The notes under the pieces: generated by a model
The model's database searches: none
What the model was told of the DNA's origin: nothing
Seen by the model: only the letters and a program-made list of their open reading frames with translations
Assembly (NCBI RefSeq): GCF_023715895.1
Contig: NZ_JAMBOO010000007.1
Coordinates: 62,001 to 126,000 of the forward strand
Source: Domibacillus indicus
GTDB lineage: Bacteria > Bacillota > Bacilli > Bacillales > Domibacillaceae
Direction of reading: 5' to 3'
DNA length: 64,000 nt
Program-made: the position numbers and the translations under genes
Shown: piece by piece, positions 32,534-59,351 of the stretch
Layout: every line of letters begins with the position of its first letter
How positions within the stretch are numbered: position 1 is the stretch's first letter

Positions 32534-34187
32534 GTGAACCTCTCCACCTAAATCAAAGATTTTGATGGAGCATCCCTTATCTTGAATACGGTACAACATC
32601 AGCTGGTTAAGCTTCCTGCGGAAGCCCGAGTGCATGATGAAGACTAATGAACGAAGACAAGGTCTGGGATGTCCTTATTGCCAGATCAGGAACTTTTGCC
32701 TGAAGAGACAACCATTTCGTTTCCGAAATGGATTTTTGAAAGGCCCGAATGAAGTAGCGGGCGCCGATATTATACGAAGCGGATAAATCCGCGTGATAGA
32801 CTTTGCCAGTTGAAAATACAGCAAGGTCTTTTTTGAGGTTCCGTTTCACTTTTCCGGAGCCGTCGAACGCCAGGGCGCTGGTGTTTCGCGGATTGATCCG
32901 GGAAATGCGCATGCCCAGGCAATGCGCCATTTCTTCCACCTTGTTCTGGATGCCTATTTTCCGCCACCCGTTAAGCTTGAAACGAAGTTTCCTGGCTCCA
33001 TAAAACCCCTTTGGGGTTTTCATTCTGCCCAAGTATTCGAATATGATGACGTCACAGCCATGCTTTGCCGCAAATTTTACAATTTCATGGCTAGTGTGGC
33101 GGACAATATGCTGCTGGTACCCATTGATCTGCCGCCAAAAATTGGGTGCGTGAATGCGGCCGCTTGCCCGCTGGGCTTTCCGCAGTTTGTTCGTTAACGT
33201 CTGCAGCCGGTCTTTTTCTTTAGGCTGGTCAATAAATGTCCGGCCTAAGACAGTGCCTGTTGCATCGATAACGGAACAAACCGCAGAGTTTGTCAGTCCA
33301 AGGTCTACCGCACACACTTTTTGTTCTTGAATAGGCGTTTTCGTTAAAGTAACTTTATTTTCGTAGCTGATGGAAAGGAAGAATTTCTTTCCCCGCTTAA
33401 TCAGCTTAGGATTGTTCTCTTTCCATTCCCAGACACCTCTTTTATAAAGGTCCTGCTCTTTAAATTCGATATCCATCCATACCCAGTCATTCTGATGGAA
33501 TACCTTTATTTGCGCGGTCGTATTAGATGTTCTATTGAACATGTTTCCGCGATAAAAAACGGGGAATTCTTTATGTTCCAACTGCAGACGCGGAGACTGT
33601 TTCTTAAATTTCTTCCCTTCGGAAAGAGCGTACTTCTGCTCTTTTTCCCAGTTTTGATAGTTAGAGCGGAAGCTCTTTACTTTGCCAAAAGCAGAAGCAA
33701 TGGCACTTCTGCGGAAGTAAGACGGAAACTTATAAAAACGCTCGTTAAATTCTTTGTATTTTGGAAGAGGGTTTGATTTAGTTGCGTGAATCAGTTTTTC
33801 TACTGCCGGCACAATCGACTTTGTTGTCAGGCCGTTGGTATGATCAAACTCTTTGTCGATAATCTGGATGATGAAGAACAGGGCCTCATTGTGAATATCC
33901 AGCGTAGCATTGAAGATTTCCGTCTGATTTGTAATTTTGTGCAGCAGCGACTTCACAACTTTCACGACCAAACCCTCCTTTCCATTTTTTAGTCCTTATG
34001 ATAGGTTGATCGTACCAAAATGGAAATCACTTGTAAAATGAAAACAGAATCGGCATGAGTGATGATAAGTAAGAAGCGACAAGCGATGTCATAAAAAATA
34101 CATAAAAGAATAAGAAGAATCAAGACCTTAGCGCCTAACCCCCACTAAATCGGAGATTTTGAAGGGGAATGCGGCGCTAATTTTTTG
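32534..34187 (-). mobile_element. IS200/IS605-type element, TnpB only, copy 1
   Basis: 1654 bp, inserted in yciC directly after TTGAA (minus strand), with no target duplication. The element starts CAAAAAATTAGCGCC and ends GAGAGGTTCAC. Left end: imperfect hairpin with TTAGCGCC/GGCGCTAA. Right end: hairpin CTCCA-tcaAAATC-ttt-GATTTagg-TGGAG, 73 nt after tnpB. No TnpA Y1 transposase is encoded, so mobility needs help in trans. The ends were set by comparison with copy 2 and by restoring both host genes. Confidence 0.92.
32607..33965 (-). CDS. tnpB: TnpB-like RNA-guided nuclease without zinc ribbon, copy 1
   Basis: 452 residues from GTG at 33965 after AGGAGGG. RuvC-like acidic residues are kept: Asp in CAVDLGLTNSAV, Glu in IIFEYLG and Asp in YHADLSASYNIGARY. 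The usual CxxC...CxxC zinc ribbon between the last two is missing; its place is taken by NPRNTSALAFDGSGKV with no Cys. More than 90 percent like copy 2 by eye, with differences concentrated near residues 25-45. The omega RNA is expected from the tnpB 3' end plus the right end. Confidence 0.88.
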   Translation of the reverse strand: MKVVKSLLHKITNQTEIFNATLDIHNEALFFIIQIIDKEFDHTNGLTTKSIVPAVEKLIHATKSNPLPKYKEFNERFYKFPSYFRRSAIASAFGKVKSFRSNYQNWEKEQKYALSEGKKFKKQSPRLQLEHKEFPVFYRGNMFNRTSNTTAQIKVFHQNDWVWMDIEFKEQDLYKRGVWEWKENNPKLIKRGKKFFLSISYENKVTLTKTPIQEQKVCAVDLGLTNSAVCSVIDATGTVLGRTFIDQPKEKDRLQTLTNKLRKAQRASGRIHAPNFWRQINGYQQHIVRHTSHEIVKFAAKHGCDVIIFEYLGRMKTPKGFYGARKLRFKLNGWRKIGIQNKVEEMAHCLGMRISRINPRNTSALAFDGSGKVKRNLKKDLAVFSTGKVYHADLSASYNIGARYFIRAFQKSISETKWLSLQAKVPDLAIRTSQTLSSFISLHHALGLPQEA

Positions 34188-34721
34188 TTCAATTTGATCA
34201 ATCAACAGATCCACTACCTCCCGGGTATCTATTTCATCTGTTCCCTGACTGCGATCTACGAGTGTTTCTCCTGATGAAAAATCCTGCCAAAAACGGTTGC
34301 CGTCTACAACGGTGACCAGCGTATCAAGACGGGTTTTTTGCGTTAAATTAATCCCCAATTCTTCATCGATGTATGTAAATGTCTGTGCAACTGGCACTGG
34401 CTCGCTGATGCCTGATGACTCGATTACAATATAATCAATATCGCCCTGGTCTACGAGCCTTTCTACTTCCTTCATTAAGTCGTCGCGCAGCGTGCAGCAA
34501 ATACAGCCATTTTGCATTTCAACCAGTTTTTCCTCTGTCCGTGTAAACCCGCCATGCTTTAAAAGTGCTGCATCGATGTTTATTTCACTCATGTCATTTA
34601 CAATAACCGCTATCTTTAAGCCTTCACGATTTTGCAGGATATGATTAAGCAGTGTGGTTTTCCCTGAGCCTAAGTAGCCGCTTAAAACGGTAACAGGAAC
34701 TTTCTTTATGTGAATCTCCAT
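34188..34721 (-). pseudogene. yciC: Zinc metallochaperone GTPase, N-terminal part (split by IS)
   Basis: 5' 178 codons of the YciC/ZagA-like protein: P-loop GYLGSGKTT, zinc-binding CxCC motif in [11 protein letters not shown], switch ESSGISEP. The frame runs into the element and stops at 34128. The ATG at 34721 has no good ribosome site; GGAGA lies after it and would fit an ATA codon at 34709 ([11 protein letters not shown], where relatives begin MKK). A Zur box abuts the start. Confidence 0.92.
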
Positions 34722-34724
34722 TAA

Positions 34725-34745
34725 AAATAGTAATCATTACGATTT
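34725..34745. promoter_or_regulatory. Zur box upstream of yciC
   Basis: On the minus strand TCGTAATGATTACTA, 14 of 15 core positions of the Bacillus Zur box, flanked by AAA and TTT. It ends four bases before the annotated ATG. Confidence 0.85.
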
Positions 34746-34777
34746 AAAATATAAACATTTTTCTTATGCTTTAGTGA

Positions 34778-35056
34778 TTATAAGCTTTGTATAATTCGTT
34801 CTGCTGCCTGGCGCGCACCTGAAGTATTTCTTGCGATCGTTCCTGCTTCCAATTCCGCCAAAGCGCCGGTCACATATAACCCCGTGCACAAATACAAGAT
34901 CGAAATAAACTCTGTACACCTTTTCCAGTTTTGAAGCGGTTTTTGATGTGGATCAACAATGGCCAATTCCCTGATAGAGGCCTTTTTTTCCTTTAGCAGG
35001 AAAGAAGCCATCGTTACGCTTTGAATGCCTCCCCCTATGATAATCCACTTGAACAT
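34778..35056 (-). pseudogene. FAD/NAD(P)-binding oxidoreductase, internally deleted
   Basis: 92 codons that join the N-terminus of a flavoprotein (dinucleotide fold WIIIGGGIQSVTMASFLL, then IVDPHQKPLQNWKR) to its C-terminus (LYVTGALAELEAGTIARNTSGARQAAERI). The family is normally about 350 residues, so some 250-270 residues are missing. The ATG follows AGGGGGAG and a Zur box lies 18 bp upstream. A functional product is unlikely; an internal deletion is the simplest explanation. Confidence 0.75.
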
Positions 35057-35073
35057 ACTTCTCCCCCTTTTTT

Positions 35074-35094
35074 AAATCGAAATTATTACGATTT
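35074..35094. promoter_or_regulatory. Zur box upstream of oxidoreductase remnant
   Basis: TCGAAATTATTACGA, one mismatch to the Zur core TCGTAATnATTACGA, flanked by AAA and TTT. Confidence 0.8.
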
Positions 35095-35382
35095 ATTTAT
35101 CATACATTAATCCTTTCTTCTAATCAAATGCCAAAGCTTTTTATACAGGTTTTTGCTTTTGATGCACAGCTGTCTGTATGGATTTCCATTTGTTTTTGTA
35201 CCTTTTTTCGCATAAAAAAAACGAAAAAATGCACATTAAGGACAGAAATTTGAATCGTTCTTCCCTTTTCTTATTTTGTCTTCAACATAATTTCAATATA
35301 ATTTTAAGTAATATAAACGAAGAGGCCTGTTTCAAGTTCCTTTTTTCTTAATTTAAACGCGCCCTGTAAAAATTTAAACAGC

Positions 35383-35410
35383 TTCACAATATTCCAACAG
35401 TATCTTTACA
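35383..35410 (+). promoter_or_regulatory. Probable PhoP box upstream of alkaline phosphatase
   Basis: TTCACA (35383), CCAACA (35394) and TTTACA (35405) are spaced exactly 11 bases apart, as in PhoP direct repeats TT(A/T)ACA. The middle copy is weak. About 70 bp upstream of the gene. Confidence 0.5.
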
Positions 35411-35478
35411 TTACTGTTTTATTTTCTTAATAAAACTTCTTTATTCTTAGCTGTATCAAGTTACTCGGAGGGATTACG

Positions 35479-37131
35479 TTGAAGAAGTTACACAAAAAAG
35501 CTGCAGGAATTACATTGGCGGGAGCTGTCGCGCTTTCTTCGTTAGGTTTTTCTGCTGCTAAGGAAGATGTACAGGCGAAAAACCCGAAAAAAGAGCCGGT
35601 TAATGTCATTATGATGGTAATGGATGGGACAAGCTCCAGCACGACTACCCTTTCAAGATGGTACAAGGGCGGAAATCTGGCTATGGATCAAATGCTGGCT
35701 GGTGGTGTTCGTACATACTCCGCTGAATCGGCGATTACAGACTCCGCACCGGCCGGAACTGCGCTTGCAACAGGCAACAAATCAAATGATAAATATGTAG
35801 GCGTCCTGCCTTCTGTCGTAAATTCACCTGGATTAGAGCCCGTTAAACCGGAAGATGCTCAAAAGCCTGTAGCCAATGTGTTAGAAGGAGCAAAGCTGCA
35901 AGGAAAAGCAACAGGTATCATTGCTACTTCTGAAATTCAACATGCCACACCAGCAGGCTTCTCTGCTCACGCTACGCACCGCAACAACTATGGTGACATC
36001 GCTGAGCAGCAGGTGTATCAAGGCATTGATGTTGTATTAGGCGGAGGAAAAGAGTCTCTTGCTCCGGGCTCAACGAAAAATGCCCGAACTGATGGCGAAA
36101 ACCTGTTAGAAGTTTTGGACGAGAAAAAATATGATTTCGTCGAAAACCGCGATGAACTTCTGGCTTCTGATTCCGACAAAATTTGGGGAAGCTTTGCCAC
36201 AAGTGCCCTTGCTTATGACTTTGACCGCGAAAGCACTCAGCCAAGCCAGCCAACGTTAGCGGAAATGACAGGAAAAGCGATTGACACGTTAAACAAAGAC
36301 GAAGATGGATTCTTCTTGTTTGTAGAAGGAAGCAAGGTTGACTGGGCAGCTCATGCCAACGATCCAATCGGAATGATTAGTGACACACTTGCTTTTGACG
36401 ATGCCGTAAAAGAAGCGGTTGAGTTTGCAAAGAAAGATGGAAACACAATGGTTATCGCTCTTACTGACCACGGCAACAGCGGTATCTCAATTGGGAATAC
36501 AAATACAAATTCTTCTTACCCTTCAACGCCGGTTTCTTCTTACATCGACCCGTTGAAAAAAGCAAAGATGACGGTTGAAGGTGCTCTCAGCCTGCTGAAA
36601 GAAGATAAATCGAATTTGAAGGAAGTAGCCGCTCTTTACGGCCTTGAAGACCTGACAGATGAAGAACTAAAAACGCTTACTGCTTCCAAAAATATTGGTT
36701 CTGATATGTCAAAAATGCTCGCTAAACGTGCAAACCTTGGCTTTACAACCGGCGGCCATACAGGTGAAGATGTTTTCTTGTACTCATACGGCCCATCAAG
36801 ACCAACTGGATTAGTTGAAAACACAGATATTGCGAAAAAGATGGCAGAAGTTATGAACTTCGATCTTGAGAAAGTGTCCGATAAACTGTACACGAATGCC
36901 GAGAAAGCATTGGCGAAAAAAGGCTATACATCCCGTATTGATGTAACAAATCCGAACAATCCTGTTTTAGTAGCGAAAAAAGGCGACAAAACCGTTGAGT
37001 TCCCAGTGAATAAAAATATTGTGATTCAAAAATTAGGGAAGTCAACTGAACAAAAAGAAGTGAACGCTGTTACAGTGTACAATGGAAAAGACTTCTATAT
37101 TTCCGAACAAGCACTGAAATTAGTAAAATAA
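35479..37131 (+). CDS. Secreted alkaline phosphatase
   Basis: 550 residues. Signal peptide MKKLHKKAAGITLAGAVALS. Catalytic Ser in ITDSAPAGTALATGNKSND; metal ligands in MMVMDGTSS, HATPAGFSAHATHRNNY, EGSKVDWAAHAND, ALTDHGNSG and TTGGHTGEDV. Longer than B. subtilis PhoA/PhoB owing to a C-terminal extension (PVLVAKKGDKTVEFPVNKN onward) that resembles a copper-amine-oxidase-N-like beta module. The start is TTG with GGAGGG at six bases. Phosphate starvation control is suggested by the Pho-like box. Confidence 0.93.
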   Translation: MKKLHKKAAGITLAGAVALSSLGFSAAKEDVQAKNPKKEPVNVIMMVMDGTSSSTTTLSRWYKGGNLAMDQMLAGGVRTYSAESAITDSAPAGTALATGNKSNDKYVGVLPSVVNSPGLEPVKPEDAQKPVANVLEGAKLQGKATGIIATSEIQHATPAGFSAHATHRNNYGDIAEQQVYQGIDVVLGGGKESLAPGSTKNARTDGENLLEVLDEKKYDFVENRDELLASDSDKIWGSFATSALAYDFDRESTQPSQPTLAEMTGKAIDTLNKDEDGFFLFVEGSKVDWAAHANDPIGMISDTLAFDDAVKEAVEFAKKDGNTMVIALTDHGNSGISIGNTNTNSSYPSTPVSSYIDPLKKAKMTVEGALSLLKEDKSNLKEVAALYGLEDLTDEELKTLTASKNIGSDMSKMLAKRANLGFTTGGHTGEDVFLYSYGPSRPTGLVENTDIAKKMAEVMNFDLEKVSDKLYTNAEKALAKKGYTSRIDVTNPNNPVLVAKKGDKTVEFPVNKNIVIQKLGKSTEQKEVNAVTVYNGKDFYISEQALKLVK

Positions 37132-37152
37132 AGGTTTCCATTCTGCGAATTT

Positions 37153-37182
37153 AAAAAGCCGGGGCTATGCCCCGGCTTTTTT
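37153..37182 (+). terminator. Terminator of alkaline phosphatase gene
   Basis: Stem AAAAAGCCGGGGC with GCCCCGGCTTTTTT across a 3-4 base loop. Confidence 0.92.
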
Positions 37183-37323
37183 ATGTGAGTTATAAACGGC
37201 TGACAGAAAGAATTTTGCCTTCATTCAGCTGCCTCTTTTAACACTTTAATCAGAGCCGCCCAGTCCAAATCTGCCCAGCTTTTTCAATCTCCTTCGCCTA
37301 ATGCTGTTTCATTAGTCAAATGG

Positions 37324-37974
37324 TTATATGTTTAATAAGGATTGAAGCTCAGTGATTCCCTCGCCAAGACGGTTGCTGACAAAAATCAAAGAAACATGAT
37401 ATCTTTTTAGTTTAAATTTCTCGTTAAATTCCTGCTCAAGGCTTTTTCTGTCTTCCTCGGTTAGATCTTCCGCATACCCTCTAACCAGTACAACGGTGGA
37501 CGTGCACTTGCTTTTATCCATAATCAGCCGGAACATGTCTTCATCGCTTTGATGAATCTTCCCTCTTATCACAAATACAATCGCGTCAACATTCTGGAAA
37601 GGAAAATACTCACGGTAGCTTCGCAGCGGATGGGCTTTTGTATCGTAGCCCGGTGTATCAATAAAGTACGTTCCATTGTATAGATGATACCATACAGGCT
37701 CCCGGCCGCTGCTCCAATCGGTTGTATCCGTTCCCTGTCCAATGTTCGGTTTCGGTTCACACTTTCCATTTGTCAGCTTCAGCAGAAGAGAAGATTTGCC
37801 GGCACCCGGCTGGCCAATAAACGCAATCTTCCTGCTCTCTGCTTCTTCTAACAATGCCGCAAGCTTCAAAAAATTCTCTTCCAGCCTGCTTTTTCTCCAA
37901 TAAGGAGCAGTATCGTAAACAGAAGAATTATAAGAAGTGTTCTTTTTGTCCCGCTTAAATGGATTTTTCACCAT
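37324..37974 (-). CDS. Small IRG-like GTPase
   Basis: 216 residues. P-loop IGQPGAGKSSLLLKL, G3 IDTPGYDTKAH; the G4 position reads VLVRGYAEDL, so no canonical NKxD. It resembles the GTPase domain of its upstream neighbour (37981-39009) and lacks the C-terminal helical part. Six bases separate the two genes. Possibly forms a heterodimer with the neighbour (inference). Biological role unknown. Confidence 0.8.
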   Translation of the reverse strand: MVKNPFKRDKKNTSYNSSVYDTAPYWRKSRLEENFLKLAALLEEAESRKIAFIGQPGAGKSSLLLKLTNGKCEPKPNIGQGTDTTDWSSGREPVWYHLYNGTYFIDTPGYDTKAHPLRSYREYFPFQNVDAIVFVIRGKIHQSDEDMFRLIMDKSKCTSTVVLVRGYAEDLTEEDRKSLEQEFNEKFKLKRYHVSLIFVSNRLGEGITELQSLLNI

Positions 37975-37980
37975 AGTCCG

Positions 37981-39009
37981 TTACTGCAGCTCTTTCTTTA
38001 ATACCTCAGTCGCCAGCTCATGACAGTCATCCAAGTAATGAATGCCCGCTTTATATGTCATTGCGTATCCGGCTGACGCCGCGATCACCTGGCCGACGAT
38101 CGGAACATATTTAGATGAATTTTTAAGTGCCGTCTTGGTGGCAAATCGTTTTAATAGAAGAGACAGCCCTTCTTTTGTCGCGTAGTCCAGCACTTTTTTA
38201 GCGACTGGAAGCAGTGCGCCTTCTAATAAAGCAAGTTTGGCGTCATTTAATCCATATGCTTTATTAATTTGAGAGAATAGCTTCAACATGACAGAAAGGT
38301 CAACGCTGATATCGACGCCTGGCACTGGGTTAATCCCGTTTGCTGCTGCGATTGCTGCATATTTCGTCACCAGCTTTTTGCATTCTTCTCTTTTTTGCTC
38401 TAGATGCTCTACTGTATACGCTTTCGCATAGCGGATATACTTTTCTTTCTTCGCGGGCTCAAGAGATTCCTGAATAGCATCCTGCAAAGAATCAAAACCA
38501 GTAGAAGTTCGGCAGCTTGTAAAGTATACGTTTTGCTTCGACCCTACCTGCTTTTCTACATCATCAATAATATCTTGCTTCAATTCTTCCAGCGTTTTTC
38601 CGTCTTCCCACAGCTGATCGCTCATGTTGCGGACAAACAAGCACACTTTCCCGCTTTCCTGCAGCTCTTTAAAAAAGCGCGTATCCGCTTCATGGAATTT
38701 TCCGGAGAACACACAGAGGAACAAATCAAATTCCTTTGGATTAAACTGGTTCATCCATTCATTTGGCGGGAACTTGCTTGTCCCATAGCCCGGCAGATCC
38801 ACTAGCAGCAGGCCTTCATACGGAATAAAATCAGCTTCTGTTGTCACATCAGTAGACGCTCCCGTTTCGGCTACCCGTTCACCGACCAGCTTATTAATAA
38901 TTGAGGATTTACCTGCTCCCGGCTGGCCAAACAGGGCAATTTTCAGCGGCTCGCTGTTTTCTTCCTCTATTTGTTTTTTAATTTTTTCAATATCATCATA
39001 AATCGACAT
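37981..39009 (-). CDS. IRG-like GTPase with C-terminal DUF697-like helical domain
   Basis: 342 residues from ATG at 39009 (GAGGTG upstream). P-loop FGQPGAGKSSIINKLVG, G3 VDLPGYGTSKFP, then a C-terminal region INPVPGVDISVDLSVMLKLFSQINKAYG and IVGQVIAASAGYAMTYKAG, hydrophobic and Gly-rich as in DUF697 and interferon-inducible GTPases. Probably acts at a membrane. First gene of a two-gene unit with a second GTPase. No defence or polyketide genes adjoin. Confidence 0.83.
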   Translation of the reverse strand: MSIYDDIEKIKKQIEEENSEPLKIALFGQPGAGKSSIINKLVGERVAETGASTDVTTEADFIPYEGLLLVDLPGYGTSKFPPNEWMNQFNPKEFDLFLCVFSGKFHEADTRFFKELQESGKVCLFVRNMSDQLWEDGKTLEELKQDIIDDVEKQVGSKQNVYFTSCRTSTGFDSLQDAIQESLEPAKKEKYIRYAKAYTVEHLEQKREECKKLVTKYAAIAAANGINPVPGVDISVDLSVMLKLFSQINKAYGLNDAKLALLEGALLPVAKKVLDYATKEGLSLLLKRFATKTALKNSSKYVPIVGQVIAASAGYAMTYKAGIHYLDDCHELATEVLKKELQ

Positions 39010-39200
39010 GTCCTTCACCTCATATGTATCGTTAAGCAATATTCTATCATACATTGCATCTGTCATAATAAAAGATCAATAAAAAGCTTTACGCTAAAGG
39101 CACCCTTTTTTTCTCACTTAGAAAAAGCCGGGTCTCTAAAACGTAAAGCTTGTCGCTAGCATACTATTTCATTTCATTTTCAAATCTAGTTCACTCTGCC

Positions 39201-40568
39201 TTAATGGCCGATCAGCACAAAATTAATAATAAAGGCGGCACTCACCATGTACATCATCCAATGAACTTCTTTCGTTCGGCCTGTCACAAGCTTTAGTACA
39301 GTGTAAGAAACAAAGCCGAATGCCAGTCCTTCTGCAATGCTGTATGTTAAAGGCATTAAAATCAACGTTAAGAAAGCCGGAACAGATTCTGTGAAATCAT
39401 CAAAGTTGATTTTTTTGATTTCGCTCAGCATCATTGAGCCGATAATAATCAACACAGCTGCTGTTGCCGCATTTGGGATAAAGTGAATAAGCGGAGCCAA
39501 AAACAGTGTAAAACCAAATAAAACAGCTGCTGTTACGGCCTTTAGTCCCGTTTTCCCGCCTTCTACAATGCCCGTGGCATTTTCAACATACGTATTTAGA
39601 GCAGTGCTTCCAAAGACAGCACTGGCCATCGTTCCAATGGAATCTGCCGTTAAAGCGCGGTTTAAGCCGGGTACTTTTCCGTTTTCGTCAGCCAGTCCCG
39701 CTTTTTTTGTTAAGCCGATCAAAGTCGCCAGCGTATCAAACAGCTCCACAATGGTAAAAGAAAACACAACCGAAAAAAGGCCGTACGCAATTGCCCCTTT
39801 TAAATCAAGCTGCAGGAACGTATCCGAAATGCTGGGCGGCGTTAATGAAAAGACGTCATTCCATTTGTGTGGAATCTCCTGAGCTCCCACCAGCATGGCT
39901 AAAACCGTTGTAGCGAAAATGCTGATAATCAATGCTCCTTTTATCCGCTTCGCCATTAACACGGCACACAATACGAGTCCGAACAAAGCCAGCAGCGGGC
40001 CTGGCTGGGAAAGATCGCCCAGGGAGACAAATGTGGACTCATTCGCCACAACTAATCCAGCATTTTTAAATCCAACAAAGGCAATAAACAATCCAATACC
40101 TGCCGTAATTGCCGCTTTTAAACCTTCTGGAATTGCAATAATAATTTTTTCACGAATACCTGTAACCGTCAGCAGAAAAAAGACAATACCTGAAATAAAA
40201 ACAGCTCCCAGCGCTGTTTGCCAGGATAGCCCCTGCCCCAACACAACCGAATAAGTAAAAAAGGCATTGAGTCCCATGCCCGGCCCTAAAACAATTGGAA
40301 AGTTTGCCCATAGACCCATGAGGAGTGTAGCAAACATAACCGCATAAATGGTTGCTCCCAGTGCAGCTTCTACCGGCATACCTGCATCTCCTAAAATAAT
40401 AGGATTGATCAGGATAATATAGCTGACGGTCATGAATGTCGTCAAACCGGCTAACATTTCTGTTTTTATGCTCGTATTGCGCTCGGACAATTTAAAAAAC
40501 CTGTCTAAAAACAAATATAGTGAACGCGCAGGAGGCTTTTCCTGTTTTTTCGCGTTTAAGTTACTCAT
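39201..40568 (-). CDS. Purine permease (AzgA/PbuG type)
   Basis: 455 residues, 12-14 membrane helices, of the guanine-hypoxanthine/adenine branch of the NCS2 family. N-terminal EMLAGLTTFMTVSYIILINP, VLGPGMGLNAFFTYSVV, and the FTIVELFDTLATLIGL motif followed by DSIGTMASAVFGSTALNTYVENATGI are diagnostic. Takes up hypoxanthine and guanine, or adenine, by proton symport. It is preceded by a promoter and a leader with a terminator, so expression is probably set by attenuation. Confidence 0.93.
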   Translation of the reverse strand: MSNLNAKKQEKPPARSLYLFLDRFFKLSERNTSIKTEMLAGLTTFMTVSYIILINPIILGDAGMPVEAALGATIYAVMFATLLMGLWANFPIVLGPGMGLNAFFTYSVVLGQGLSWQTALGAVFISGIVFFLLTVTGIREKIIIAIPEGLKAAITAGIGLFIAFVGFKNAGLVVANESTFVSLGDLSQPGPLLALFGLVLCAVLMAKRIKGALIISIFATTVLAMLVGAQEIPHKWNDVFSLTPPSISDTFLQLDLKGAIAYGLFSVVFSFTIVELFDTLATLIGLTKKAGLADENGKVPGLNRALTADSIGTMASAVFGSTALNTYVENATGIVEGGKTGLKAVTAAVLFGFTLFLAPLIHFIPNAATAAVLIIIGSMMLSEIKKINFDDFTESVPAFLTLILMPLTYSIAEGLAFGFVSYTVLKLVTGRTKEVHWMMYMVSAAFIINFVLIGH

Positions 40569-40592
40569 TTTTTTCAGCTCCTTCGTCGTTAG

Positions 40593-40647
40593 TCAAAAAA
40601 AAATAAGCTGCAAAAAATATGCCGACTAAGCATATCTTCTGTAGCTT
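40593..40647 (-). terminator. Terminator in purine permease leader
   Basis: On the minus strand the arms AAGCTAC/GCAGCTT and ATATGC/GCATAT form an imperfect long hairpin followed by nine T's. It lies about 50 nt from the predicted transcript start and about 25 bp before the permease gene. Confidence 0.75.
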
Positions 40648-40701
40648 GGAAATGCCGGTTTTGCTAGCGGGGTAATAAAGGTGAGGATTTCAATATGGGT
40701 C

Positions 40702-40730
40702 ATTATACGGCTATAAGATTTATTTAACAA
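40702..40730 (-). promoter_or_regulatory. Sigma-A promoter for purine permease
   Basis: TTGTTA (40725-40730) and TATAAT (40702-40707) on the minus strand are 17 bases apart. The predicted leader runs from about 40695 through the terminator. Confidence 0.7.
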
Positions 40731-40920
40731 GGGAGCAGAAGCACTTTTTATAATTAAAAAATTAACATGCAGACGTTTGGTTTTGAACTTGTGCGTTTAA
40801 TTCATCAGCTCCTGCGAAAAACGATAATTATTTTAACGGAACTTTAAATCCTTCTTTCCCACTTGTTCAATTAAAAAAGCCGTTTCCCTGGTTAGAGAAT
40901 CGACTTTGAGAAAATTTTTC

Positions 40921-40944
40921 CATTAGGCTCCTCTGGAGCTAATG
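40921..40944 (-). terminator. Terminator overlapping DUF3221 gene stop
   Basis: Stem CATTAGCTCC with GGAGCCTAATG across a 3-base loop, overlapping the TAG stop, followed by GAAAAATTTT on the minus strand. Confidence 0.7.
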
Positions 40945-41293: not shown

Positions 41294-41411
41294 TTACTCT
41301 CCCCTTTTTGTCTTTTTTCCATATTCGCTGCCGTTCAGTTATCCATATTTATTATTCATCTTTTTCTCATAAAGAAAACAGGACATCCATAACGTCTTGC
41401 TTTCATTTAAT

Positions 41412-42182: not shown

Positions 42183-42224
42183 TTTTTTCCTTATTAAACT
42201 AAAGCACCCACTGATTGAATAAGG

Positions 42225-50123: not shown

Positions 50124-50214
50124 ACTGTTTTACAGGATACCCCTGAAAAGATGTAAGCCAACACTTTGTATGGTTTATATCTTTTCTTTTTATTAATTTC
50201 ATATAAAAGTAATT

Positions 50215-50246
50215 GGCTGGGAGAGTTTCTTAGGACCTCCCAGCCC
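50215..50246 (+). terminator. Terminator of PhoX-like gene
   Basis: Perfect 9-bp stem GGCTGGGAG/CTCCCAGCC with a 14-base loop, followed by CTCTTTTT. Confidence 0.8.
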
Positions 50247-52101: not shown

Positions 52102-52609
52102 AGCCAGGTTTTATACGTATTTCTATAGTTACTGTTTTTCACCTCTAAAGAGAGTAATAGATGAAGACAGATTTTCAAACTGCCTGCAACATTGGAGCTT
52201 GTTTGAATCTCCCCCTCAATTGATGAGGTAAAAAAGGTGCTGTGCTGTTAAATACTTGGTAATCCTTTTCCTTATGTTTTTTCATGTGAAATGAATTCTG
52301 CCTATACTCCGAAATTCCACTGTATAAGTTGAATATCTCGTCCTACTAACTCCACTTTAAATTATCCCAACTGCTTTCACATAAACTTCGAATGCTTCGT
52401 AAATTCATATCAAGTAATAGATAAAGTGCCCTTCCGATTAAAATGACAGCACACCAGATGAAACAAATCTATTTTTCAAAAATTATAGAGGAATTCAAGG
52501 ACGGGCGATTCTCATTTTGTGCAGAGGTTGCCTTTAAGAAGTAATTCAATAAGAGATAGCTCACTACACTCATTAATAAATTCAAATGAGTTCAAATTAC
52601 TGATTTTAA
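52102..52609. other. Intergenic region with gene debris
   Basis: 508 bp. Only a 33-residue frame (52443-52544) looks protein-like; no ribosome site, tRNA or hairpin of note was seen. Confidence 0.35.
52443..52544 (+). pseudogene. Possible coding fragment
   Basis: 33 codons reading MTAHQMKQIYFSKIIEEFKD then GRFSFCAEVAFKK. No ribosome site. It may be a relic of the 5' part of the gene at 52610 or of another lost gene. Confidence 0.25.
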
Positions 52610-53896
52610 GTGCAAAAGAGATTGATTACCACAAATCAGTATGTACCAATTAAATTTTCAGGATTTGAAGAAGTTTCAAAAACAGCTGCCTTCTCATGGG
52701 CTGATATGCAGAAAAAATATGCACGAACAAAATATAGCTATGAAAGGAGTGTTTCATTCGTGAGGAACAAAAAAGAGCACCTTAATGAATGGTTCGTTCT
52801 GCAATCTCTCTTTAACCATAACGTTCCTTCCGAACTCATCAATTTATTGGATAATCTGGTGAAAGAGAATAAGATGGATAGCGCCAAACTATCCGATTTT
52901 AAGATTATGGGCAATGTGAAGAAGTTATACACGCAATTTATTAATCGTTTCAATAGAATTCCCAAAGTTTTTCCGGTAATCATCTCAGCAACAGAAGCAT
53001 TGAATGTTGATCTTGTCATTTCAAATTTTAACGTTAAAAGTATGAAATATGCTTTGACAATAGAAGAACTCGATATTCAATACCAAGTATTCATAAGCCT
53101 TGCTTTTGGCAATCAAGTTTACGATGTTGCAGCTAAACTAAGAAAATACGATAAAGATTTATATAATTTTGTCGGCGGTCTGCCTTCAATTCCGTTTCAA
53201 GATGAAACATTGAAGCAATGGATTGTTCGCCATGCAGGAACCACAGATAATCTAACGATTCACTCGGTGGCCAGGTTATGGGAGCAACCCGATTTTCCTA
53301 GAGATAAGTCAATGGCTGAAATGAAGGCTTATATCACCAAACACAGAGCAGTCACCGAATGGGAATTTGCCAAACAAAAATACCCTCAAATATTTGATCA
53401 ACCGTTTGAATGCAGGATCCAAAACACCCCCTATAAAAGGAAAGATGAACAAGTCCGAGTTCTAGATCCCAATGATAAAATGCAAATAATGCTGGGTGTA
53501 TTGACCGTTTGCTGCCAACGATTGGACGGTACGGGTGAAGCTTGCATGATCGAAGGGCTAATCAACCCGGATAGCGGATTTCTTGTATTTGAAAGAGGGT
53601 CTAAAGTTTTGGCACAATCATGGATCTGGCTTACTGAGGACCATACGTGTCTTGTGATGGATAATATCGAACTTGCGGATTGTAGAAAACCAGAAGATAT
53701 CCTTTCTCTTTTATTCGAGTGGGCGAACCAATCACCTTATCAAAACATTCAAATGGGTACGGGCTTTAACCGCGTAGAGATCGGATTGCCTGTGCAGGCA
53801 GAAGAAATGAAATGGTATCGGCAAATGTGGAAGTTCAAGTATACGGACGCTCATCAGCGAGTATGGATCAAAAAGAATGGGAAAATGTGTATCTAG
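52610..53896 (+). CDS. Unknown 428-residue protein, possibly 5'-truncated
   Basis: The frame opens after a stop and begins with GTG and no ribosome site, so the true 5' end may be lost or the start may be internal. N-terminal half is helical (SSELINLLDNLVKENKMD-like region, IEELDIQYQVFISLAFGNQVYDVAAKL). The C-terminal half has a compact beta-rich domain (CMIEGLINPDSGFLVFERGSKVLAQSWIWL, CLVMDNIELADCRKPEDIL) that could be acyltransferase-like. No family was recognised. Confidence 0.6.
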   Translation: MQKRLITTNQYVPIKFSGFEEVSKTAAFSWADMQKKYARTKYSYERSVSFVRNKKEHLNEWFVLQSLFNHNVPSELINLLDNLVKENKMDSAKLSDFKIMGNVKKLYTQFINRFNRIPKVFPVIISATEALNVDLVISNFNVKSMKYALTIEELDIQYQVFISLAFGNQVYDVAAKLRKYDKDLYNFVGGLPSIPFQDETLKQWIVRHAGTTDNLTIHSVARLWEQPDFPRDKSMAEMKAYITKHRAVTEWEFAKQKYPQIFDQPFECRIQNTPYKRKDEQVRVLDPNDKMQIMLGVLTVCCQRLDGTGEACMIEGLINPDSGFLVFERGSKVLAQSWIWLTEDHTCLVMDNIELADCRKPEDILSLLFEWANQSPYQNIQMGTGFNRVEIGLPVQAEEMKWYRQMWKFKYTDAHQRVWIKKNGKMCI

Positions 53897-54374
53897 TTCG
53901 AAGATTGACATTCCCGCAGCTAAAGTAGACTATCCTCCCCTTATTCTCTAATACTCTGATCAAACTCCCTTTTCTAAACCAAAACATCTGTTATGTTCAT
54001 ACATAAATAGAGGTTGATGTTTGTGAATTAAGAACGATTGTGTTCAGAAAAGACTCTTTTGGAATACACCCACCCGGTTCTCGGCAGGATATGGATGTTG
54101 ACTTTAATTTGCGTAGTTTTTAAGCGTTAATTTGTACAAAAGAAACATAAAAAGCTCATGATTATTCGAGTGATAATCATGAGCTCCTTTCATACTTGTT
54201 CTAATTTTTATTTGTACGTATGCACGAATTATTAATCAAAACTCTGTTGTTTTTTAAAATTGCTAAATAGTGGGTATTAAAATACTAACAGCAACAATAT
54301 TAAATTGCGCTTCCTTGATGGTCCTAAATAACGTAAAATGGATAACTATTTTACTTGTAAGGAGTAACTTTTTA
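53897..54374. other. Intergenic region with orphan hairpin
   Basis: 478 bp between the convergent unknown gene and a small membrane protein. The only structure seen is the strong hairpin at 54151-54190, 255 bp past the upstream stop. No coding frame of note. Confidence 0.4.
54151..54190. terminator. Strong bidirectional hairpin
   Basis: Arms AAAGCTCATGATTAT and ATAATCATGAGCT across a 6-7 base loop, then CCTTTC on the plus side and TTTTTATG on the minus side. It fits a terminator for the leftward gene at 54375-54629 (about 185 bp away) or for an unrecognised RNA. Confidence 0.6.
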
Positions 54375-54629
54375 TCAAGGATTTTGAAAACCAAATAAAG
54401 CGATCCATTGGATACATAAAATTAGTAAAAGGATAAAACTAGCCAATACAAGTACTAATTTCAATTTTTTGTTTTTCATTTTAAGCATTAATGATAAAAC
54501 AATACAAATAAAGATAACCAGAATACTGTTAGCGAGAAACCCTATTGTCACTCCGTCTGGCCTAGCAACCCATGTATAGATAGATAAGATTAATGCATAA
54601 ATTGTCGTTATTAAAGGCAGGAAGAGCAT
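54375..54629 (-). CDS. Small membrane protein of unknown function
   Basis: 84 residues from ATG at 54629, chosen because GAGGAG lies seven bases upstream; the longer frame from 54650 overlaps that site. Three hydrophobic segments (LPLITTIYALILSIYTWV, IGFLANSILVIFICIVLSLML, LVLVLASFILLLILCIQWIALF) with a basic loop MKNKKLK. No family recognised. Confidence 0.7.
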   Translation of the reverse strand: MLFLPLITTIYALILSIYTWVARPDGVTIGFLANSILVIFICIVLSLMLKMKNKKLKLVLVLASFILLLILCIQWIALFGFQNP

Positions 54630-54828
54630 GTAAAGTCTCCTCATTTCCATTTAAAACTATGTTTGATTATTTATATACACTATTAATTTGATGTAAAAAT
54701 ACACAATAGTTAAATAGGTCAATAATCCTGGTCAATATTAAGCTTTTTAAAAACCCTATTCACATAATTAGCCACACAACAGCAGATCATGTATGTAGCA
54801 TGCTCTTCTGATGAAAAACTTGACTAAC

Positions 54829-55242
54829 TTATTTAGAAACTGTCAAAAGAGGGATATCTCTCGTACCTTCAAAATCGCCGGTACATTGTTTCAAAACATA
54901 ATGATCGGAACCATTTTTTGTTTCAATTGCTATGTCTTCACAACTGTATTCCTCTATAAATTTCTTATCAACACTGCTGGAAATATGAATGTTGTTTTCT
55001 TTAGAAGTTAAGGTTGTTACCCCTCGCTGTCCTTCTACCCCGTACTCAATATAATTTACGGTATCTTCCTTTTTGAGTTTTGCACGTTTTATAAATGTAT
55101 CCAGAGCCTTTAAGTTCTGAATATCATTATGTTTATTCACTACCTCTTCAACATTGTTATTATGAGACTGAACATTACTGTCGTTAGAACAGCCTGCAAT
55201 GAAAAATAAGGAACATAAAACATTCATCATTCTCCTGTTCAT
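54829..55242 (-). CDS. Small lipoprotein (DUF4362-like)
   Basis: 137 residues from ATG at 55242 (AAGGAGG upstream). Lipobox IAGC near residue 18. Mature part has KHNDIQNLKALDTFIKRAKLKKEDTVNYIEYGVEGQRGV, the pattern of DUF4362 lipoproteins of Bacillus, and ends with two Cys that may bond (YSCED, LKQCTGDF). Extracytoplasmic; function unknown. Confidence 0.75.
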   Translation of the reverse strand: MNRRMMNVLCSLFFIAGCSNDSNVQSHNNNVEEVVNKHNDIQNLKALDTFIKRAKLKKEDTVNYIEYGVEGQRGVTTLTSKENNIHISSSVDKKFIEEYSCEDIAIETKNGSDHYVLKQCTGDFEGTRDIPLLTVSK

Positions 55243-55368
55243 AACCATCCTCCTTACTTGAAAAAGAAGCCCCCCCCCGTTATTCCGCCCAAAAAGCCAC
55301 TAAAAAATTCTGCCCTGTTGCTTTTATGGGCTGTTTTACATTCAGGAATCCAGCGCCTGGCTAAAAGA

Positions 55369-55779
55369 TTAGGATTCTTCATAGTGCTTCCATTCCTTGT
55401 CAGCACCTTCTTTAGAAAACCCGCCACTCTGCTTTACCTGGCCGCCTTCTACATAGTAGGTATACCCTTTGTCCAGTTCATTAAGAAAAATCACTTCTAT
55501 TCCTCCATGATTAAGAGAGACTCCTTCCTCTCTTCTAATAAACCACTGTTCGCCTGGATACTTCTCCCGCAGGTGTGTTTCTACCGCATCCATGTTTTCC
55601 ATGATCGTTCTTTTTTCTGCGTCTTTTTCCGCTATCAAATAGATGACTTCCATTGTACTCATAAAAAGGGCCAGCGCTAAAAACACGCTTCTTTTCCTCG
55701 AATAAAACAATGCGACAAGCGACAGAACCAAAATAGGCAGCACCATGAAAAAACAGGTTACAATTGCATTGGGTGACAC
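55369..55779 (-). CDS. Small membrane-anchored protein of unknown function
   Basis: 136 residues, GTG start after GGGGAGGGGGG. Two membrane helices at the N-terminus (AIVTCFFMVLPILVLSLVALFY, SVFLALALFMSTMEVIYLIA) and an extracytoplasmic or soluble domain with VETHLREKYPGEQWFIRREEGVSL. No family recognised. Confidence 0.7.
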   Translation of the reverse strand: MSPNAIVTCFFMVLPILVLSLVALFYSRKRSVFLALALFMSTMEVIYLIAEKDAEKRTIMENMDAVETHLREKYPGEQWFIRREEGVSLNHGGIEVIFLNELDKGYTYYVEGGQVKQSGGFSKEGADKEWKHYEES

Positions 55780-55849
55780 GGCATTCCCCCCTCCCCTTTA
55801 TACAGACATTAAAATACCAGCTATGTTCAAGAACTGCGAGTCCTTCTTC

Positions 55850-56281
55850 TTAATTCTTTTTTGTTAAAATAATCACTTCAGTTTTCTGCTGACGTCCTTC
55901 AAGCCAATCAAGCACCAATGTGACTTCCTCCGTTTCTGAAGTGATTGTTTTCGTGATCTTTTCATTCTTAAATGAAATTTCTCGTTGTTCATTGAAAGAA
56001 AGGTCTCCCCCGCTAAAACTTCCTCCATCGGACTCCAGCTTATATACAATATCTTTTATTTCTGCAAATGCAACATCTCTCGGTTTAAGGTATATATACG
56101 GCTCTATTCCCTTTACTTCCGGCTCTATTACTTTGCCTGTATAAACTTCTGCTTCCCAGTTTTCTCCCTGTCCCTTAAATAGGAGATTTTCATCGGCATT
56201 TTCATTTTCACCAGAAGCACAGGCAGCGAGGAAAGCAATGATTACCGCATATGCATACAAAGCAAATAAATGATTTCTCAA
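55850..56281 (-). CDS. Small lipoprotein of unknown function
   Basis: 143 residues. Signal with lipobox LAAC near residue 21. Mature part is beta-rich and acidic (EPYIYLKPRDVAFAEIKDIVYKLESDGGSFSGG) and ends TEVIILTKKN. No family recognised. It is one of three small exported or membrane proteins in a row on this strand, each with its own spacing. Confidence 0.75.
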   Translation of the reverse strand: MRNHLFALYAYAVIIAFLAACASGENENADENLLFKGQGENWEAEVYTGKVIEPEVKGIEPYIYLKPRDVAFAEIKDIVYKLESDGGSFSGGDLSFNEQREISFKNEKITKTITSETEEVTLVLDWLEGRQQKTEVIILTKKN

Positions 56282-56404
56282 CTTAAATACCTCATTTTAT
56301 TTTTTACCAATATTACCATAAATAACAAAACTTCAAATGTATATGCGCAGGGCATAAGAAAAATATTTTCCTGCAAAAGAAACAGCTGTTTGGCATTCTA
56401 AATA

Positions 56405-56443
56405 AAAAAGCTTTATAACAGATCTCTCTGTCATAAAGCTTTT
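56405..56443. terminator. Bidirectional terminator
   Basis: Stem AAAAGCTTTATaACAGA with TCTGTcATAAAGCTTTT, at the end of the sorbitol-linked gene set. Confidence 0.85.
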
Positions 56444-56466
56444 GCGAAGCAGAACGGTTTTCCTAT

Positions 56467-57123
56467 TTATTTATGAAGGAAGCGAATCAGCTCATCAAGA
56501 GACATTTCTTCCATAGAAGCGAGGCGATGATCCACTTCACAGAAAGACAAACCGCTCGTTACCTGATTCGGTATAATTACACAGCGCATCCCCGCTCTTT
56601 TTGCAGCAAGGGCCCCATTAGCGGAATCCTCAAACACAAGACACTCTTCCGGTTTTAAGCCGAGACATTCCGCTGCCTGCAAATAAAGCGCAGGGTCCGG
56701 TTTCACGTTTTCTACATCATCCGCTGTGCGAATACATTCAAAATGTTCAAGCAGGCCTAAATTTCCTAAATGAGTGGAAATCCACTTAGAATCAGAGCTT
56801 GACGCCAAACCAACTTTTAAGCCAAGCGCTTTAGCAGAAGCCAAATAGGCTTCTACGCCAGGTCGTGCCCTCTCAGAGGCGATTCTCTGATCAAATCGTT
56901 CTGTTCTCAGCTTTCTGAGTGCTTCATGATCAAGCTGCCTGTTCAGCTGGCCTTCCATAAAAACGAAAGGGTCAAAATCAGATTTGGTCCCGACTAATTC
57001 AGCCCATTTACTGAGCGGCAGATCGCACTCGTGCTCCTGAAAAATCTCCTGAAGCACTTCATATTCATGGAGCTCTGTATCCAAAATCAGCCCGTCGAAA
57101 TCAAAAATAACACCTTTAATCAT
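56467..57123 (-). CDS. HAD-IA phosphatase (beta-phosphoglucomutase-like)
   Basis: 218 residues. HAD motifs: nucleophile DFDGLILDTE, motif II GLASSSDSKW, Lys in VKPDPALY and motif IV VFEDSANGALAA. The cap domain is of the small helical type. Dephosphorylates a sugar phosphate or isomerises one. It lies about 65 bp downstream of the transaldolase gene, at the end of the sorbitol operon. Substrate unknown. Confidence 0.88.
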   Translation of the reverse strand: MIKGVIFDFDGLILDTELHEYEVLQEIFQEHECDLPLSKWAELVGTKSDFDPFVFMEGQLNRQLDHEALRKLRTERFDQRIASERARPGVEAYLASAKALGLKVGLASSSDSKWISTHLGNLGLLEHFECIRTADDVENVKPDPALYLQAAECLGLKPEECLVFEDSANGALAAKRAGMRCVIIPNQVTSGLSFCEVDHRLASMEEMSLDELIRFLHK

Positions 57124-57189
57124 GTTCTACACCCTTTCTCTTTAAAATCAAATGCCTATTTTTTGCCCTGCTTCAAATATATACCCTTC

Positions 57190-57701
57190 TTACTGAGTAT
57201 GGATGACACTATCACATGATTCACCATAAAACAGCTTCCAGTCCTCCTCAAACTGTTTGACATTTGATTCAGTGACTGGATGTTCTACTAACAATTTAAG
57301 AATCTCTGGTCCCGCTATCACACCATGTGCGCCTGCTAAACCTACTCCATGCACCTGCTGTGTGTTTTTAAAGCTGGCTGCCAGCACCTGGCAGGACAGC
57401 TGGCAGCCTTCAAATAATCCGACGATATCTCTTACCACCTGAACCCCGTCACCCGCCAGATTATCAATACGGTTGACATAAGGAGCGACAAAGTCAGCTC
57501 CGGCTTTTGCCGCTACGAGCGCCTGCATCGGCGTGTAGATAGCTGTGGCAAGTGTGCTTATTCCTTGCTGCTTTAATTGTTTGATTGCTTTGATGCCTTC
57601 TGCTGTTACAGGAATCTTTATAGAAAGGTTCCCGCCAATTTCTTCTTTTAAATAGACAGCTTCTTTCACCATTTCTTCAGCATGTCCCTCCAATACTTGA
57701 A
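57190..57701 (-). pseudogene. Transaldolase-like protein, C-terminal part (split by IS)
   Basis: 3' part of a Fsa/TalC-type transaldolase: VQVLEGHAEEMVKEAVYLKEE, the Schiff-base Lys in SIKIPVTAEGIKAIKQL, TAIYTPMQALVAAKAGADFVAPYVNRIDN and QVLAASFKNTQQV. Joining 59352 to 57701 gives ERMLF-VQVLEGH without change and a 227-residue protein, normal for the family. Disrupted, so very likely inactive. Confidence 0.92.
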
Positions 57702-59351
57702 CAAAAAATTAGCGCCGCATTCCCCTTCAAAATCTCCGATTTAGTGGGGGTTAGGCGCTAAGGTCTTTATTCTTCTTGTTCCTCTATCTTTTTATTATAC
57801 CGATTGCCGCTTCCTACTTATCATCATCATACTGATTCTCTTTTCGTTTTACAATTGATTTCCATTTTGATACGATCAACCTATCATAAGAATTAAAAAA
57901 TGGAAAGGAGGGTTTGGTCATGAAAGTTGCGAAGTCGCTGCTGCACAAAATTACAAACCAGACGGAAATCTTCAATGCTACGCTCGATATTTACAATGAC
58001 GCTTTGGCTTACGTGATTGAGGTCATTGACAAAGAATTTGATGATACCAAACGCCTGACAACAAAGTCGATTGTGCCGGCAGTGGAAAAATTGATTCACG
58101 CAACCAAATCAAACCCTCTCCCGAAATACAAAGAGTTTAACGAACGTTTTTACAAGTTTCCATCCTACTTCCGCAGAAGTGCTATTGCTTCTGCTTTTGG
58201 CAAGGTAAAGAGCTTCCGCTCTAACTATCAAAATTGGGAAAAAGAGCAAAAGTACGCTCTTTCCGAAGGAAAAAGATTTAAGAAACAGCCTCCGCGCCTG
58301 CAAGTGAAACATAAAGAGTTCCCCGTTTTTTATCGCAAAAACATGTTCAATAGAACATCTGATACGACTGCAAAAATTAAGGTATTCCATCAGAATGACT
58401 GGGTATGGATAGATATCGAATTTAAAGGGCAGGACCACTACAAACGCGGTGTCTGGGAATGGAAAGAACATAACCCTAAGCTGATTAAGCGGGGAAAGAA
58501 ATTCTTTCTTTCCATCAGTTATGAAAATAAAGTCACTTTAACGAAAACACCTATTCAAGAGCAAAAAGTGTGTGCGGTAGACCTTGGACTGACGAATTCT
58601 GCTGTTTGTTCGGTTATCGATGCAACAGGCACTGTCTTAGGACGGACGTTTATTGACCAGCCTAAAGAAAAAGACCGGCTGCAGACGTTAACGAACAAGC
58701 TTCGGAAAGCCCAGCGGGCAAGCGGCCGTATTCAGGCGCCGAATTTTTGGCGGCAGATCAATGGGTACCAGCAACATATTGTCCGCCACACAAGCCATGA
58801 AATTGTAAAATTCGCGGCGAAACATGGCTGTGACGTCATCGTATTCGAATACTTGGGCAGAATGAAAACCCCAAAAGGGTTCTATGGAGCCAGGAAACTT
58901 CGTTTCAAGCTTCACGGCTGGCGAAAAATAGGTATCCAGAACAAAGTAGAAGAAATGGCGCACTGCCTGGGCATGCGTATTTCCCGGATCAATCCGCGAA
59001 ACACCAGCGCCCTGGCGTTTGACGGCTCTGGAAAAGTGGAACGAAACTCGAAAAAAGACCTTGCCACATTTTCAACAGGCAAAGTCTATCATTCGGATTT
59101 GTCCGCTTCTTATAATATCGGAGCCCGTTATTTCATTCGAGCTTTTCAAAAAACCATTTCGGAAACGAAATGGTTGTCACTTCAGGCAAAAGTTCCTGAG
59201 CTGGCAATAAGGACATCTCAGACCTTGTCTTCGTTCATTAGTCTCCATCATGCACTCGGGCTTCCGGAGGAAGCTTAATCCGCTGATGTTGTACTGTATT
59301 CAAGATAAGGGATGCTCCATCAAAATCTTTGATTTAGGTGGAGAGGTTCAC
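57702..59351 (+). mobile_element. IS200/IS605-type element, TnpB only, copy 2
   Basis: 1650 bp, closely related to copy 1 (32534-34187). It follows TTGAA (57697-57701), starts CAAAAAATTAGCGCC and ends GAGAGGTTCAC, with no target duplication. Left-end hairpin TTAGCGCC/GGCGCTAA, right-end hairpin CTCCA...TGGAG at 59315-59343. Inserted opposite in orientation to the transaldolase gene it splits. Confidence 0.92.
57920..59278 (+). CDS. tnpB: TnpB-like RNA-guided nuclease without zinc ribbon, copy 2
   Basis: 452 residues from ATG at 57920 after AGGAGGG. RuvC residues Asp (CAVDLGLTNSAV), Glu (IVFEYLG) and Asp (YHSDLSASYNIGARY) are kept; no CxxC pairs. Differs from copy 1 mainly near residues 25-45 (YNDALAYVIEVIDKEFDDTKRL here), so the two are not a very recent duplication. 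The 73-nt right end follows the stop. Confidence 0.88.
   Translation: MKVAKSLLHKITNQTEIFNATLDIYNDALAYVIEVIDKEFDDTKRLTTKSIVPAVEKLIHATKSNPLPKYKEFNERFYKFPSYFRRSAIASAFGKVKSFRSNYQNWEKEQKYALSEGKRFKKQPPRLQVKHKEFPVFYRKNMFNRTSDTTAKIKVFHQNDWVWIDIEFKGQDHYKRGVWEWKEHNPKLIKRGKKFFLSISYENKVTLTKTPIQEQKVCAVDLGLTNSAVCSVIDATGTVLGRTFIDQPKEKDRLQTLTNKLRKAQRASGRIQAPNFWRQINGYQQHIVRHTSHEIVKFAAKHGCDVIVFEYLGRMKTPKGFYGARKLRFKLHGWRKIGIQNKVEEMAHCLGMRISRINPRNTSALAFDGSGKVERNSKKDLATFSTGKVYHSDLSASYNIGARYFIRAFQKTISETKWLSLQAKVPELAIRTSQTLSSFISLHHALGLPEEA

Follow-up and report, generated by a model that had tools for sequence, protein, structure and literature searches.

ISDra2, an IS200/IS605 element of Deinococcus radiodurans, inserts 3′ of a pentanucleotide without duplicating it, and that pentanucleotide, TTGAT, is both its target and the transposon-associated motif (TAM) of its TnpB nuclease (PMC8612924). 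Its guide RNA comes from the right end and overlaps the 3′ end of tnpB; in another TnpB system, the guide RNA is processed from tnpB mRNA (PMC10278001). In the IS605c/IS608 organization, tnpB is accompanied by a divergent tnpA. Elements of the IS1341 type carry tnpB alone between a left end (LE) and a right end (RE), and it has been described as unclear whether such TnpB-only elements are independent or are decayed IS605 (PMC9956272). Here, we describe two TnpB-only elements, copy 1 and copy 2, in a 64,000-nt stretch (the window) of contig NZ_JAMBOO010000007.1 of Domibacillus indicus (assembly GCF_023715895.1; genome coded G000). We conclude, at a probability of roughly 0.83, that both descend from an IS605-type element by deletion of tnpA, were inserted in trans at TTGAA and were kept by a benefit in cis from TnpB and the right-end RNA.

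Like ISDra2, the window copies lie 3′ of a pentanucleotide without duplication, have a right-end guide RNA (predicted here) overlapping the 3′ end of tnpB, and encode a RuvC triad; they differ in their TTGAA target, deleted tnpA, missing zinc ribbon and distant sequence. The divergent tnpA and tnpB of IS605c/IS608 recur in relatives from Domibacillus robiginosus and Evansella, whereas most of tnpA is missing from the window copies. As in IS1341-type elements, tnpB stands alone between LE and RE, but the window family keeps recognizable tnpA remnants. Because of these remnants, it would count as a decayed IS605 under the rule of PMC9956272, which allows an IS1341 element no Y1-derived sequence longer than 20 bp beside tnpB. 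The decayed IS605 set of Halanaerobium hydrogeniformans is similar in its many copies, intact ends, divergent genes, single intact IS605 tnpA with presumed mobilization in trans, and one remnant resembling a palindrome-associated transposable element (PATE) (PMC7290912). Most tnpB types are disrupted there, whereas here most full-length copies (23/26) keep the frame.

Empty sites, ends and the copy family

By Pfam, copy 1 interrupts a gene for a CobW/YciC-type GTPase (cobW and CobW_C domains), and copy 2 one for a transaldolase, with TAL_FSA matched to either side of the element. Both genes are uninterrupted in G041, a two-contig genome labelled as the same species, where the flanks of each copy meet at the predicted joint with 57 of 60 bases identical. 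Right flanks matched G041 at 28/30 and 30/30 positions at offset 0 and at no more than 14/30 when shifted (offsets −8 to +8); hence, insertion neither duplicated nor removed a base. A third site, that of copy S12, is likewise empty in G041 (59 of 60 bases). Each window copy starts with CAAAAAATTAGCGCC immediately 3′ of TTGAA and finishes with GAGAGGTTCAC, and subterminal hairpins are present at both ends, the LE hairpin aligning across copies and the RE hairpin showing compensatory changes. A sequence-only reading of the window had placed both elements directly 3′ of TTGAA with these ends and no duplication, and had predicted that their removal would restore yciC and the transaldolase gene. 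The G041 sites bear this out: the intact genes that it had proposed to look for in a sister strain are there, joined as reconstructed, and the flanking frames in the window are open to the joint on both sides. The joint of copy 2, taken alone, is ambiguous by 6 bp because its right flank also starts CAAAAA; copy 1 and the remaining copies settle it.

TTGAA precedes the joint in all eight uninterrupted yciC homologues compared (seven from other genomes and one G000 paralogue); further matches in G002, G005 and G009, plus another in G004, lie outside this set. Of the two transaldolase alleles compared, that of G041 has TTGAA and that of the more distant G001 has TTGGA. A second, uninterrupted yciC homologue in G000 (L288, C114:11500-12800) may substitute for the broken one. 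We rejected an IStron or group I intron as the nature of the elements: no Rfam family reached its gathering score in a scan of the window, and copies 1 and 2 are oppositely oriented relative to the genes they interrupt.

The window elements are members of a high-copy family, and the closest named relatives of their TnpB are from Domibacillus. The G000 draft (180 contigs, 5.08 Mb) has 18 copies with both ends (labelled S; copy 1 is S08 and copy 2 is S01), and G041 has 10 full-length copies (labelled T). TTGAA starts at 0.24% of window positions yet stands to the left of 27 of these 28 two-ended copies (18/18 in G000, 9/10 in G041), and four further G000 left ends that run into contig ends are all at TTGAA. 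Across the 28 copies, positions −5, −4, −3 and −1 are fixed and −2 is kept in 27, with weaker preferences outside. Outside Domibacillus, 12 of 13 left ends in relative loci also follow TTGAA. By the precedent of ISDra2, whose target is also its TAM, TTGAA is predicted to be the TAM of this TnpB, and the guides are predicted to start directly after the right ends. The right-end RNA, which covaries, and the complete RuvC triad, both described below, back these predictions indirectly. A literature search found no paper joining TnpB with TTGAA or with Domibacillus, most subscription journals lying outside its scope.

None of the 18 G000 sites matched any of the 10 G041 sites when flanks were compared; therefore, the full-length insertions are younger than the split of the two strains or have turned over since. 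G000 and G041 copies are intermixed in a tree of 26 full-length copies. S12 and T01 lie in one neighbourhood, 336 bp apart and in opposite orientation. For three short derivatives (L069/L268, L064/L266 and L067/L269), flanks common to both strains were seen by eye.

The tnpA-bearing form and its loss

Relatives retain what the window copies lack. Locus L176 of Domibacillus robiginosus has the same left end at TTGAA and an intact, divergent Y1 TnpA of 133 aa, in which the HUH motif DHIHI was recognized by eye; its tnpA reads away from a tnpB that is truncated at the contig end. In Evansella, a tnpA match adjoins each of four tnpB matches, three of them full-length, and Caldalkalibacillus has one match to each gene. 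The tnpA-bearing members have LE, RE and target in common with the TnpB-only copies. We did not count one further TnpA candidate, L179 (G010:C55), around which neither an LE nor an RE of the family was seen.

The distance from LE to tnpB is approximately 212 bp in the Domibacillus TnpB-only copies versus 544 to 563 bp in relatives with room for tnpA. Within the short gap, 33 copies retain a stretch corresponding to the 3′ end of tnpA, with 31 to 40 of 47 to 51 aligned bases identical to L176. In 27 of 28 copies, this similarity stood above dinucleotide shuffles, no more than 2 of 300 reaching the score; for S02, it did not (50/300). The start region of tnpA is apparently retained too, judged by eye against L177, and inspection by eye of 34 aligned Domibacillus copies showed the same deletion junction in 33, the exception being S17 with a larger deletion. 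The simplest reading of these sequences would be a single ancestral deletion of tnpA. Having no Y1 HUH TnpA but only its remnants, the window copies are filed as derivatives, not as autonomous IS200/IS605 members. We conclude from these comparisons that they are tnpA-deletion derivatives of what was apparently a two-gene element of the IS605 type.

In G041, tnpA is represented by one copy with an in-frame TAG and one fragment; in G000, by one fragment. In Bacillus sp. REN16 (G046), the tnpA match that adjoins an open tnpB holds two TGA stops. Elsewhere, tnpA is mostly or wholly gone in Heyndrickxia sporothermodurans (gap of ~286), Virgibacillus (165) and Paenibacillus (135), and because these gaps differ, separate losses are suggested.

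TnpB, the right-end RNA and selection

The TnpB proteins of both copies passed the cut-off of the NCBIfam guided_TnpB model (100 bits; scores in Table 1); Pfam OrfB_IS605 (PF01385) gave only 20.6 to 21.7 bits, below its cut-off of 30.5. The RuvC residues D223, E312 and D395 do not vary among the 26 copies or among the 23 proteins of an alignment for which open frames were chosen (leaving out L090, L092, L097, L098, L100 and several Domibacillus copies). A sequence search of solved structures returned Cas12f chains only (three at E 0.001) and no TnpB. When the AlphaFold model, which is weak (mean predicted local distance difference test score, 63.5), was compared with one structure library, the best match was Cas12f (E 6.8e-10) and ISDra2 TnpB ranked 15th (E 3.9e-7). 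ISDra2 TnpB has four zinc-ribbon cysteines (PMC10097598), and these are missing here: the region has no Cys in 22 of the 23 aligned proteins and one in L089. We did not treat the C4 zinc ribbon of the TNB domain as strictly defining for TnpB. A literature search for TnpB without a zinc finger gave nothing relevant, which is weak evidence given its narrow phrase. TnpB is apparently an intact RNA-guided DNA cutter.

We aligned the 160-nt right ends, using 21 of 48 distinct sequences, and obtained 38 consensus pairs. Of the alignment cells concerned, 96.1% pair, versus 86.2% in column shuffles. Both sides have changed in 16 of the 38 pairs (shuffles, 10.2), and the alignment reaches a covariation score of 0.337 (shuffles, 0.158). 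Sliding the partners by 1 to 3 columns lowered pairing to 35 to 47% and the score to 0.03 to 0.08, a comparison biased toward the structure because the structure came from the same alignment. Compared with shuffles, the single-strand fold of the copy 2 right end had a moderate excess of stability (z = −2.34), its value being reached by 6 of 200. We concluded that the right end encodes a structured RNA overlapping the 3′ end of tnpB. The guide length of 20 nt in Table 1 is borrowed from ISDra2.

The tnpB reading frame is kept in 23 of 26 full-length copies (the alignment excludes S17 and S18, which have internal deletions) and broken in S07, T03 and T10. Among the 23 frame-intact copies (253 pairs), the median pairwise ratio of nonsynonymous to synonymous substitution (dN/dS) was 0.104 (range, 0.066 to 0.292) at a median dS of 0.362, in pairs that are non-independent and between which recombination is possible. 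Diversity at codon positions 1, 2 and 3 was 0.043, 0.037 and 0.187. It was 0.039 in the non-coding last 73 nt and 0.123 at positions 71 to 212, the gap containing the tnpA remnant as well as the tnpB leader. The copies have the tnpA deletion in common; therefore, tnpB and the right end were under purifying selection after tnpA had been lost. Outside Domibacillus, tnpB is open in all five tnpA-poor loci of Heyndrickxia, Virgibacillus and Paenibacillus, while L090, L092, L097 and L098 combine a tnpA-length gap with an interrupted tnpB. An inverse relation between a tnpA-length gap and an open tnpB is possible, on very small numbers.

Table 1. Positions in the window of the two TnpB-only copies, their parts and the genes they interrupt
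Feature	Position	Strand	Basis
Copy 1, whole element (S08), in yciC	32534..34187	-	1654 bp; base-exact empty site in G041, ends common to other copies
Copy 2, whole element (S01), in transaldolase gene	57702..59351	+	1650 bp; base-exact empty site in G041
TTGAA target of copy 1, predicted TAM	34188..34192	-	Sequence; 8/8 compared uninterrupted yciC homologues
TTGAA target of copy 2, predicted TAM	57697..57701	+	Sequence; G041 empty allele
Left-end hairpin of copy 1, TTAGCGCC...GGCGCTAA	34128..34180	-	Sequence; alignment across copies
Left-end hairpin of copy 2	57709..57761	+	Sequence; alignment across copies
Divergent tnpA remnant of copy 1 (start region and last codons, middle deleted)	34055..34121	+	Limits approximate; 3′ end resembles intact tnpA of L176 (0/300 shuffles reach score); start region compared with L177 by eye
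Divergent tnpA remnant of copy 2	57768..57830	-	Limits approximate; 2/300 shuffles reach score against L176 tnpA
tnpB of copy 1, 454 aa, TTG start	32607..33971	-	NF040570 guided_TnpB, 109.6 bits; D223/E312/D395
tnpB of copy 2, 454 aa, TTG start	57914..59278	+	NF040570, 112 bits; RuvC triad
Right end of copy 1, predicted guide-RNA scaffold	32534..32693	-	Covarying structure
Right end of copy 2, predicted guide-RNA scaffold, overlapping tnpB 3′ end	59192..59351	+	Covarying structure; fold
Predicted 20-nt guide of copy 1, TTCGCTAATGTC...	32514..32533	-	Right flank; G041 empty allele identical at 19/20
Predicted 20-nt guide of copy 2, CAAAAAGCATCC...	59352..59371	+	Right flank; G041 empty allele identical at 20/20
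yciC-type gene, 5′ part (cobW domain)	34188..34721	-	Pfam PF02492
yciC-type gene, 3′ part (CobW_C)	31874..32533	-	Pfam PF07683
Transaldolase gene, 5′ part	59352..59523	-	Pfam PF00923
Transaldolase gene, 3′ part	57190..57701	-	Pfam PF00923

Several short sequences in both genomes resemble parts of the element. Near-perfect palindromes of ~66 bp, which look like bidirectional terminators that arose from the LE, consist of the left-end hairpin flanked on either side by A/T tracts (L066, G000 C88:66847; L067, C136:119979; L068, C66:16283; L267 and L269 in G041); most are bordered by TTGAA/TTCAA or a near-match. The right-end hairpin is mirrored as a palindrome, GTGAACCTCTCCA...TGGAGAGGTTCAC, in L273 (G041 C1:185138), and L276 (G041 C2:2116365) is a near-match to it. 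A ~57-bp hybrid at TTGAA, L274 (G041 C2:1730783), joins the left half of LE to the right half of RE via the common segment TCAAAATC...GATTTAG. L259 (G041 C1:622438-622598) is a lone right end of 161 nt and 98% identity, holding the entire predicted guide-RNA scaffold without tnpB; no LE was detected in its fetched flanks. An ends-only, PATE-like form of 115 to 120 bp (L069, G000 C94:61383; L268, G041 C1:1030101) has flanks apparently common to both strains. Matches of 126 to 127 nt at the ends of contigs C118, C77 and C97 are so uniform in length that they suggest overlap left by the assembly, and they were not counted as solo right ends. By eye, S07 (L037, G000 C88:69804-71457) adjoins an open frame resembling a tnpB of another family, and S02 (L032, G000 C109:428) interrupts a gene resembling that of a Fic-domain protein.

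How the copies may have been kept

The reading that we prefer would begin with a full ancestral form in the order LE, leftward tnpA, rightward tnpB, RE. A Y1 TnpA acting in trans would then have inserted tnpA-deleted copies 3′ of TTGAA without duplication, as their observed placement and joints suggest. Each copy would be expressed and processed to yield TnpB and a structured RNA of ~160 nt from its 3′ end, the guide being the host sequence that follows its own right end. On the ISDra2 model, TnpB with this RNA would cut TTGAA plus guide, that is, the empty allele left by excision or arriving from a sister strain, and repair from an occupied copy would restore the element (PMC8612924). Such a benefit in cis would explain selection on tnpB and the right end after the loss of tnpA, and a guide taken from each copy's own flank could account for selection on individual copies within a multicopy family. 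More tentatively, and with low confidence, we suggest that TnpB activity in cis, not TnpA, may sustain the lineage: it would have spread to dozens of sites after the deletion, with copy-by-copy selection through homing into empty alleles and an occasional TnpA in trans, and the Heyndrickxia, Virgibacillus and Paenibacillus forms would be independent repeats.

Several observations weigh against retention by TnpB at TTGAA. Neither G000 (a draft) nor G041 yielded an intact Y1 tnpA, so present mobility is only putative. T10 lies at TTGTA, the Heyndrickxia left end L082 at TTAAA, and several short derivatives deviate from TTGAA. Conservation of tnpB is not universal, as S17 and S18 illustrate, and outside Domibacillus it is interrupted in 5 of 15 loci (L090, L092, L097, L098 and L100, of which L090 and L098 are from metagenome-assembled genomes). 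The three closest pairs, all from G041, average a dN/dS of 0.21 (0.17 to 0.29), and a recent relaxation of selection is possible; the pairs are also non-independent, and recombination may have occurred between copies. Because the four zinc-ribbon cysteines are absent, nuclease activity cannot simply be assumed, and the weakness of the AlphaFold model counts on the same side.

Some of these observations would fit a different history, in which the copies owe their conserved look only to a small number of intact master elements as ancestors, with TnpB a passenger and decayed copies purged. The closest pairs, the interrupted frames in relatives, and the four left and four right ends at draft contig ends, which are consistent with near-identical copies left unseparated by the assembler, all agree with it. 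However, the sampled copies are old: the median dS is 0.36, and for every one of the 15 intact copies in G000, the closest sampled relative is at a dS of at least 0.13. The common tnpA deletion further means that in the masters themselves, with no tnpA in cis, tnpB would have stayed under selection. We therefore consider descent from masters unlikely, if far from negligible.

TTGAA could also be the target of TnpA only, with a different or looser TAM for TnpB; the title of one paper (PMC11043419) names a flexible TAM requirement of TnpB. Given that target and TAM coincide in ISDra2 (PMC8612924) and that the pentanucleotide is near-invariant across the 28 copies, we regard this as improbable. 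It is very improbable that TnpB has been recruited to a host role, in defence or in TldR-like regulation, so that its conservation reflects host selection. Such a role would suit the strong purifying selection seen where no tnpA is present in cis, and the PADLOC models Cas12f and Cas12u3 match TnpB, but the copies are many and dispersed, with none of the 18 G000 sites among the 10 of G041, each has a different flank as guide, and the RuvC triad is intact, whereas TldR is nuclease-dead. That these are genuine IS1341-type elements that never had tnpA, as its absence from the full-length G000 and G041 copies and the result for S02 might suggest, is scarcely credible beside the remnants in 27 of 28 copies and the tnpA-bearing members with the same LE, RE and target.

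A parent form, a deletion derivative, base-exact empty sites and a signal of selection that can be measured are all available in this one family, which makes it possible to test whether TnpB itself preserves an element. The family further points to a TnpB clade that lacks the zinc ribbon and whose predicted TAM is TTGAA.

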